Origin: Chloroflexota bacterium
Lineage (GTDB): Bacteria > Chloroflexota > Anaerolineae > DTLA01
Assembly: GCA_014874485.1 (NCBI GenBank)
Contig: JADBJK010000023.1
Coordinates: 1-47,641, forward strand
Reading direction: 5' to 3'
DNA: 47,641 nt
The notes beneath the pieces were generated by a model. The model worked only from the letters and a program-made list of their open reading frames with translations. It was not told where the DNA came from and did not search any database. The position numbers and the translations under genes are program-made. Below are positions 4,071-8,405 of the stretch, piece by piece; position 1 is the stretch's first letter; every line of letters begins with the position of its first letter.

Positions 4071-4090
4071 GATTAGCCTCCTTTGGCGTA

Positions 4091-4147
4091 CTATCCCCAG
4101 TTCACGCTGCTCTGGCTGCCGAAGTTACGGTACTGCTGGTTTCCCAT
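4091..4147 (-). other. 18-codon mini-ORF ending in SVNWG (leader peptide or remnant subtilase tail)
   Basis: An ATG at 4147, preceded by AGGGAAG, opens 18 codons ending RNFGS-QS-SVNWG and TAG at 4091, 20 bp before the GTG of subtilase copy 2. The terminal SVNWG equals the repeat unit of the two proteases, and RNFGS looks like a degraded VNWGS. Either it is a translated leader peptide, or the residual 3' end of a third subtilase copy whose body was lost. The longer reading in this frame (from 4330) runs through the riboswitch and is not a credible protein. Confidence 0.45.
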
Positions 4148-4193: not shown

Positions 4194-4289
4194 GAGGTTC
4201 TTCGGCGGCCCGGCGATCTTGGGAGGAGGCCACAAGACCCGTAGCTTTGCGTCCCACAGTCACCCGTGGTTTGCCCTTGTCGGAACCTC
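4194..4289 (-). promoter_or_regulatory. Cyclic-di-GMP-I (GEMM-I) riboswitch
   Basis: The leader RNA shows the GEMM-I aptamer core. P1 is GAGGUUC/GAACCUC (4283-4289 with 4194-4200), followed by the conserved GGGCAAACC (4268-4276). P2 is closed by a GUGA GNRA-type tetraloop (4254-4269), followed by the conserved GGACGCAAAGC (4244-4254), then UACGGGUCU entering P3. These invariant blocks and their order match the cyclic-di-GMP-I class. P1 is followed by UGUUGUUUU, which could be part of a termination platform. The aptamer begins about 70 nt after the predicted transcription start and lies about 120 nt before the GTG of the first subtilase gene. It should therefore tune both protease genes to cyclic-di-GMP. 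Confidence 0.93.
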
Positions 4290-4444: not shown

Positions 4445-4570
4445 GGGATGCTTGGCCATCCGCCTGGGCCACAGGAGGAATCGCGAATCTGCGCGGACGG
4501 ACACAATCGTCCTAAGTACTCTGCCACAGTGAATCTTGACGGTGTGTCGGTGCGAGGGTGCGCAGTGCCC

Positions 4571-4598
4571 GTAGGGACAATTCACGAATTGTCCCTAC
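4571..4598. repeat. GTAGGGACAATT palindrome
   Basis: Twelve-bp perfect arms around CACG. A close relative, with GGGG for GGGA, occurs at 11780-11807. Both belong to a dispersed intergenic palindrome family. Confidence 0.8.
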
Positions 4599-4601
4599 TG
4601 A

Positions 4602-4698
4602 GGCGCGGAGCGCCGAAGAATCTCGCCAACCGAGATGCGTCGCGTCGCTCAGCATGACAGATGGAGTGTGAGATTGCTTCGCTTCGCTCGCAATGACA
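4602..4698. repeat. REP-like TGTCATTGCGAG elements (two partial units)
   Basis: Degenerate copies of the family seen as an array at 7656-8377, ending CTCGCAATGACA. They fill the gap between the regulator gene and the operator region. Confidence 0.75.
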
Positions 4699-4725
4699 AC
4701 GGGCCATTTTCTCTGCGGTCAAGCA

Positions 4726-5498: not shown

Positions 5499-5566
5499 TG
5501 TCATCCTGAGCGGCGACGCAGCGAATATCTTGCGAGCCGAGATGCTTCGCTCCGCTCGCAATGACA
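5499..5566. repeat. REP-like TGTCATCCTGAG element
   Basis: A single degenerate unit of the family at 7656-8377, lying in the gap between the ruvA stop and the regulator start. Confidence 0.75.
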
Positions 5567-5593
5567 GAGGTTGGGGCGAGGGCTTCGCCGCAC

Positions 5594-7639: not shown

Positions 7640-7655
7640 AACAGGCTCCCTTCAC

Positions 7656-8377
7656 TGTCATTGCGAGCGAAGCGAAGCAATCTCGTACCCCGGGGATTGC
7701 TTCGGGCGCTGCGCGCCCTCGCAATGACAATCCCTACCTGTCATGCCGAGCGGAGCGAAGCAATCTCGTACCCCGGGGATTGCTTCGGGCGCTCCGCGCC
7801 CTCGCAATGACAATCCCTACCTGTCATGCCGAGCGGAGCGAAGCATCTCGGTTGGCGAGATTCTTCGCGGCTTCGCCGCTCAGAATGACAGTTTGGCCCT
7901 GTCATTGCGAGCGAAGCGAAGCAATCTCGTACCCCGGGGATTGCTTAGGGCGCTGCGCGCCCTCGCAATGACAATCCCTACCTGTCATGCCGAGCGGAGC
8001 GAAGCATCTCGGTTGGCGAGATTCTTCGCGGCTTCGCCGCTCAGAATGACAGTTTGGCCCTGTCATTGCGAGCGAAGCGAAGCAATCTCGTACCCCGGGG
8101 ATTGCTTCGGGCGCTCCGCGCCCTCGCAATGACAATCCCTACCTGTCATGCCGAGCGGAGCGAAGCATCTCGGTTGGCGAGATTCTTCGCGGCTTCGCCG
8201 CTCAGAATGACAGTTTGGCCCTGTCATTGCGAGCGAAGCGAAGCAATCTCGTACCCCGGGGATTGCTTCGGGCGCTGCGCGCCCTCGCAATGACAACCTC
8301 TGCCTGTCATTGCGAGTGAAGCGAAGCATCTCGTACCCCGGGGATTGCTTCGGGCGCTGCGCGCCCTCGCAATGACA
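7656..8377. repeat. REP-like hairpin array, 9 units, with 161-bp dimeric period
   Basis: Nine units start TGTCATTGCGAG or TGTCATGCCGAG and end CTCGCAATGACA or CTCAGAATGACA, so each is an imperfect palindrome. Two types are seen. A (~70 bp core) contains GAAGCAATCTCGTACCCC and GATTGCTTCGGGCGC; B contains GAAGCATCTCGGTTGGCGAG and TTCTTCGCGGC. The order is A A B A B A B A A. A-B pairs recur with an exact 161-bp period (starts 7900, 8061, 8222). The stretch holds no credible gene. It lies after the agmatinase stop and before the yebC promoter. Confidence 0.9.
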
Positions 8378-8405
8378 CGCCACCAAGAATCGCCGCGATA
8401 CAGCA

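Follow-up and report, generated by a model that had tools for sequence, protein, structure and literature searches.

A probable cyclic-di-GMP riboswitch in the leader of a two-gene subtilase operon, and recurrence of the arrangement in Chloroflexota

Does an RNA that senses cyclic-di-GMP stand in front of the two secreted proteases encoded at this locus, and what would such an arrangement do? We analyzed the whole 47,641-nucleotide stretch (the window) together with related loci from other Chloroflexota genomes. The sequence-only reading had described an aptamer with all invariant GEMM-I blocks, and the covariance models bear this out: cmscan against Rfam gave a single gathering-level RNA match in the whole window, a full-length hit to RF03167 with 65 bits against a cut-off of 59 (E value of 3.3e-13), and RF01051 scored 62.7 bits against a cut-off of 35 at the same site. 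RF01051 is the parent model, and RF03167 is the “GGC” variant of Rfam. The blocks GGGCAAACC and GGGACGCAAAGC, the P2 stem closed by a GNRA loop (GUGA, 4263-4260), and the closing P1 stem are all intact (Table 1). MIR918 matches at 7960-8235 were discarded as chance hits arising from inverted repeats.

In the Vc2 structure, cyclic-di-GMP is contacted by residues G20, A47, and C92. The RF03167 alignment places the putative ligand contacts of the window aptamer at G 4275, A 4248, and C 4205, which we take to be the counterparts of these residues. The aptamer would accordingly carry the standard G/A/C contact set, and for this reason cyclic-di-GMP is most likely its ligand. The same genome has a second c-di-GMP-I aptamer (G000:C71:89895-89817; L001, L067), which precedes a 131-amino-acid secreted-looking protein without a Pfam match and lies about 3.5 kb from a GGDEF gene.

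Table 1. Features of the window at and around the aptamer
Feature	Position	Strand	Basis
Operator-like repeats TTAAGAAACCTGAACG and TTAAGACACCTTAACG, 32 bp apart	4441-4426 and 4409-4394	minus	kept in L058
Extended -10 element TGC-TATAAT (TGCTATAAT)	4375-4367	minus	sequence; kept in L058
c-di-GMP-I (GEMM-I) riboswitch aptamer	4284-4200	minus	Rfam RF03167 and RF01051 covariance matches
Candidate anti-Shine-Dalgarno segment GGCCUCCU, apical P3, complementary to Shine-Dalgarno AGGAGGCU	4224-4231	minus	duplex test, low-energy folds
Candidate switching sequence CUUCGGCAGCC, complementary to aptamer 3' strand	4114-4124	minus	duplex test
Shine-Dalgarno AGGAGG of subtilase 1	4077-4082	minus	sequence
Subtilase 1, 526 aa, signal peptide, SVNWG tail at about residues 488-525	4070-2490	minus	PF00082 147.8 bits, PF01469 38.9 bits
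Subtilase 2, 544 aa, signal peptide, SVNWG repeats and looser VNWG tail	2439-805	minus	PF00082 166.9 bits
Terminator-like hairpin, weak T run, between subtilase 2 and c-di-GMP enzyme	764-792	minus	hairpin kept in L239
Promoter-like TTGACC-17-TACCAT before c-di-GMP enzyme	730-758	minus	kept in L239
MASE9-like N-terminal membrane sensor of GGDEF/HD-GYP enzyme	698-3	minus	PF20972 22.6 bits, just below cut-off 24.3

The aptamer ends 129 nt before the GTG start codon of subtilase 1. A near relative, L058, is about 88% identical to the window in the surrounding region and keeps the promoter, the operators, and the leader; its P2 stem has a G-C pair where the window has G-U, so that the stem is kept. 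Transcription starting downstream of 4194, which the sequence-only reading had named among the outcomes that would refute it, is unlikely because the predicted extended -10 element lies upstream of the aptamer and is conserved in L058. The operator-like repeats follow a pattern (TTAAGANACCTNAACG) with just two exact copies genome-wide, both at this locus; a dedicated regulator is likely, and the winged-helix gene at 5388-4726 is a candidate. Between the aptamer and subtilase 1, a minus-strand frame at 4147-4091 (MGNQQYRNFGSQSSVNWG-stop) ends in SVNWG-stop. We rejected it as a leader peptide, since its start codon is not kept in L058 and SVNWG reads SENWG there; the frame is probably a remnant of the 3' end of a tailed gene. 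The window also contains many copies of a palindromic repeat (TCATTGCGAGCGAAGCGAAGCAATCTCG and its variants), at 4560-4700, 5510-5570, and 7640-8390.

How the aptamer might act on the operon was approached through duplex tests and folding. Pairing of the apical P3 segment GGCCUCCU with the Shine-Dalgarno sequence gave p values of 0.017 in the window and 0.006 in L058, and CUUCGGCAGCC can form 10 of 11 pairs with the aptamer 3' strand in the window and 11 of 11 in L058 (p values of 0.045 and 0.001, respectively). Minimum-energy folds accommodate both pairings at once, nested in a single structure in which the Shine-Dalgarno sequence is occluded. When the aptamer is enforced, the Shine-Dalgarno sequence is not robustly freed, and the outcome varies with the transcript ends; an ON switch predicted by folding was therefore dropped, although the apo folds do close the Shine-Dalgarno sequence. 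No intrinsic terminator was found behind the aptamer in the leaders of the window and L058, which makes translational control through the predicted P3 anti-Shine-Dalgarno segment more likely in the window. In three other SVNWG loci (L047, L051, and L044), the aptamer is followed by an intrinsic terminator whose left arm is able to base-pair with the 3' strand of the aptamer; this pairing clearly beats shuffled sequences in L044 only (p value of 0.01, against 0.08 and 0.28 in the other two). The terminator layout in these relatives suggests an OFF switch, in which high cyclic-di-GMP would mean less protease. An anti-Shine-Dalgarno segment as a class-wide device was rejected, because CCTCC occurs in just 11 of 97 aptamers.

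Both genes behind the leader encode predicted proteases of family S8, with Peptidase_S8 E values of 5e-43 and 8e-49 and with the Asp, His, and Ser catalytic motifs intact in the alignment. The gap between them is just 50 nt, so the two genes likely form one operon, and the earlier description of an aptamer ahead of two tandem, repeat-tailed secreted proteases holds. PF01469 (Pentapeptide_2) matches at 38.9 and 37.4 bits against a cut-off of 26.4, scores that low-complexity repeats can reach by composition. Foldseek matched a window subtilase best to 3afg (E value of 6e-25), and, together with PF00082 and the catalytic motifs, this is what the enzymes share with the propeptide subtilisins of family S8 such as Tk-SP; unlike these, they add a C-terminal (SVNWG)n tail, which AlphaFold2 predicted with very low confidence (pLDDT below 30) in a model that is weak overall (mean pLDDT of 58).

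The module described earlier stands as far as the tailed pair and the riboswitch are concerned, but its most informative neighbor, a GGDEF/HD-GYP gene directly behind subtilase 2, had been overlooked. The gene is cut by the contig end and resumes on C77 (L240), the first 25 codons of which repeat the end of the window protein and are followed by GGDEF and HD-GYP motifs; an intact homologue of 912 amino acids in L239 (6929-9667) has GGDEF, MASE9, and HD domains by Pfam. The motifs in L240 and the Pfam domains in L239 place the downstream gene among the GGDEF/HD-GYP enzymes, and GGDEF genes are present in the window genome. Because a terminator-like hairpin and a promoter-like site intervene, the enzyme of the window may be a separate transcription unit. 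In L243 and L052, the subtilase-cyclase gap is 78 to 84 nt and terminator free, which makes cotranscription plausible there, whereas the intervening hairpin and promoter-like site make it doubtful in the window and L239.

Of 13 scorable tailed loci, 8 have a c-di-GMP enzyme gene as the following gene, in the same orientation as the subtilase, with the window and L239 counted separately. Besides these two, L241, L243, L052, and L049 have a GGDEF gene in this place; L244 and L247 have one of the GGDEF-EAL type, that of L247 being read by motif only from a partly masked sequence. The further lineages concerned are Herpetosiphonaceae, Anaerolineales, and another family with NSWSG tails. The sensor domains of the SVNWG loci are homologous to one another, with 31 to 38% identity between lineages. 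In L049, a strong hairpin with a T run, possibly an attenuator, lies just before the ribosome-binding site of the cyclase.

Recurrence of the arrangement was examined from two sides. Tailed subtilases were sought over the genome collection by a DNA pattern for VNWG-S-VNWG, a search blind to RNA, and in Chloroflexota this pattern leads to S8 subtilases. The sequence-only reading had proposed looking for the same riboswitch before VNWG-tailed subtilases elsewhere in the phylum; it is present upstream in five of the nine pattern-found loci outside the window (L058, L047, L051, L044, and L052), as tandem aptamers in L044 and L052. The five come from A05DMB-I-30, Herpetosiphonaceae KatS3mg057, Chloroflexus islandicus, and two Anaerolineales. 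Four further tailed loci were found via the riboswitch and are not independent for the link between tail and riboswitch. No c-di-GMP-I aptamer occurs anywhere in three of the eight genomes that encode SVNWG-tailed subtilases; the riboswitch is therefore not a fixed part of the arrangement. In L042 and L057 (apparently one contig, JANTHP010000087.1), from a genome without a c-di-GMP-I aptamer, apparently four SVNWG-tailed subtilase genes follow one another, and some of their products have large additional N-terminal domains.

From the side of the RNA, 91 genomes out of a sample of 400 Chloroflexota contain RF03167-type aptamers. The first genes downstream of 97 sampled aptamers include 15 Peptidase_S8 and 4 M6 metallopeptidase genes, where the downstream gene was taken as the longest nearby reading frame, a choice that adds some noise. 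The S8 background in 12 aptamer genomes is about 5 matches per genome, roughly 0.1% of genes; against this, 15 of 97 corresponds to an approximately hundredfold enrichment. No other group of genes stands as often behind such aptamers in Chloroflexota as the subtilases, and the wiring is thus not specific to this locus. In three Chloroflexota genomes, c-di-GMP-I aptamers precede FliA/WhiG-type sigma factors (L105, L138, and L152).

Tails rich in tryptophan are not confined to the SVNWG form. Riboswitch-linked subtilases from other families end in NSWSG (G021 and G008), GFGQWAG (G318, where the frame is apparently broken in the assembly), or EWAFLG (G088) repeats. In the same 12 genomes, no further subtilase that was examined has a tryptophan tail except the operon partner in the window. 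In the tree, the SVNWG subtilases fall in a single clade (100/98), and the SVNWG, NSWSG, and EWAFLG enzymes are grouped with moderate support (93/89); a single origin of the tails, with a changing repeat motif, is possible. A generic screen for tryptophan every five codons was abandoned because it was swamped by DNA tandem repeats. In the open-licence literature, we found no publication on such subtilase tails, the sole match concerning a bacteriocin. Small SVNWG or VNWG frames, which are candidate peptide signals or remnants, occur in L049 (a 19-amino-acid frame, MNTLYGKTRRSVNWGGSKG, between the subtilase and the GGDEF gene) and in L045 (an 89-amino-acid frame with a signal-like start at 6311-6042 on the minus strand, beside the tailed subtilase).

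Taken together, we consider it probable that a c-di-GMP-I riboswitch lies in the leader of a two-gene subtilase operon and belongs to a recurrent cassette with cyclic-di-GMP feedback. Binding of cyclic-di-GMP to the leader aptamer would alter protease output, and the cassette would tie the tailed subtilase to the second messenger by the riboswitch, by the neighboring membrane GGDEF enzyme, or by both. By this logic, the membrane enzyme would transduce an external signal into cyclic-di-GMP, to which the riboswitch would respond by tuning the protease level to the sessile or dispersing state, closing a feedback loop. More tentatively, the riboswitch, the tailed subtilase, and the membrane GGDEF enzyme might constitute a conserved Chloroflexota cassette in which the protease itself, or else peptides derived from its tail or the nearby small SVNWG frames, act via the sensor while cyclic-di-GMP feeds back; the enzyme would have a MASE9-like sensor in SVNWG loci and come with or without an HD-GYP or EAL domain.

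Several known systems resemble parts of this arrangement. LapD-LapG likewise joins cyclic-di-GMP signaling to a surface-acting protease, but its protease is a cysteine protease bound by a GGDEF/EAL receptor protein, and it includes neither a riboswitch nor a subtilase. The RF01051 and RF03167 riboswitches share with the window the sequence blocks, the P1/P2/P3 layout, the GNRA loop, and the inferred contacts; the window differs in its candidate anti-Shine-Dalgarno segment inside P3, its terminator-free leader, and its target operon. In Vibrio cholerae, the leader of gbpA also contains a class I aptamer (Vc1) and has no apparent terminator, and its product is likewise secreted, but GbpA is a chitin-binding colonization factor rather than a protease, and Vc1 is reported to be activating (PMC4744006). 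A precedent in principle is ZmpI/PPEP-1 (CD2830) of Clostridioides difficile, a secreted protease that cyclic-di-GMP represses and whose mRNA carries a class I c-di-GMP riboswitch (PMC6366702); the general principle of controlling secreted proteolysis through such a riboswitch therefore has a forerunner. ZmpI/PPEP-1 is a zinc metalloprotease whereas the window enzymes are subtilases, its adhesin substrates are described as being under opposite riboswitch control, and the part of that account drawn on here describes neither an adjacent cyclase nor a tryptophan-repeat tail (PMC6366702). The same review states that c-di-GMP riboswitches rarely control cyclic-di-GMP metabolic genes (PMC6366702).

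The precedent also gives weight to a plainer explanation, namely, an ordinary riboswitch-protease unit of the ZmpI/PPEP-1 kind (PMC6366702), with the cyclase as a bystander under its own promoter and the tails unrelated to signaling. The hairpin and promoter-like site before the enzyme fit such a unit, as do tailed loci without an adjacent cyclase; in C. islandicus, G088, and G318, the riboswitch is present and no cyclase is adjacent. However, the enzyme adjoins tailed subtilases in several lineages at the frequency given above, compared with none of six untailed riboswitch-linked subtilase loci, and the short, terminator-free gaps of L243 and L052 also argue against a bystander, so we regard this explanation as rather unlikely.

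Two further alternatives concern the aptamer itself. It could be a decayed relic whose regulation has possibly been lost, as the terminator-free leader and the SVNWG-stop remnant at 4147-4091 might indicate, but every aptamer block is intact, the differences from L058 preserve the P2 stem, and the promoter and operators are conserved, which makes decay very unlikely. Equally, its filing under the GGC variant, with an RF03167 score about 2 bits above that of RF01051, might point to another ligand. The label appears to denote a G at position 47, which would be the column that gives the variant its name; after GACGC, the RF03167 consensus reads G (GACGCG), whereas the window reads A (GACGCA), which sets it apart from the variant. 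By regular expression, A occupies this position in 92 of 98 sampled Chloroflexota aptamers, the remainder being five unmatched by the expression and a single G call that is an artefact of it. With canonical G, A, and C as the inferred contacts, a ligand other than cyclic-di-GMP is extremely improbable.

Little was found published on c-di-GMP signaling in Chloroflexota, and our search of the open-licence literature found no description of a cassette of riboswitch, tryptophan-tailed subtilase, and cyclase, which is a weak sign of novelty. What looks new here is the subtilase class, the tryptophan tails, the breadth across Chloroflexota, and the adjacent cyclase. If the proposed circuit is true, the cassette would be a compact feedback circuit linking surface proteolysis with the decision between sessile and motile life, and it would give a testable role to the unexplained tryptophan-repeat tails.
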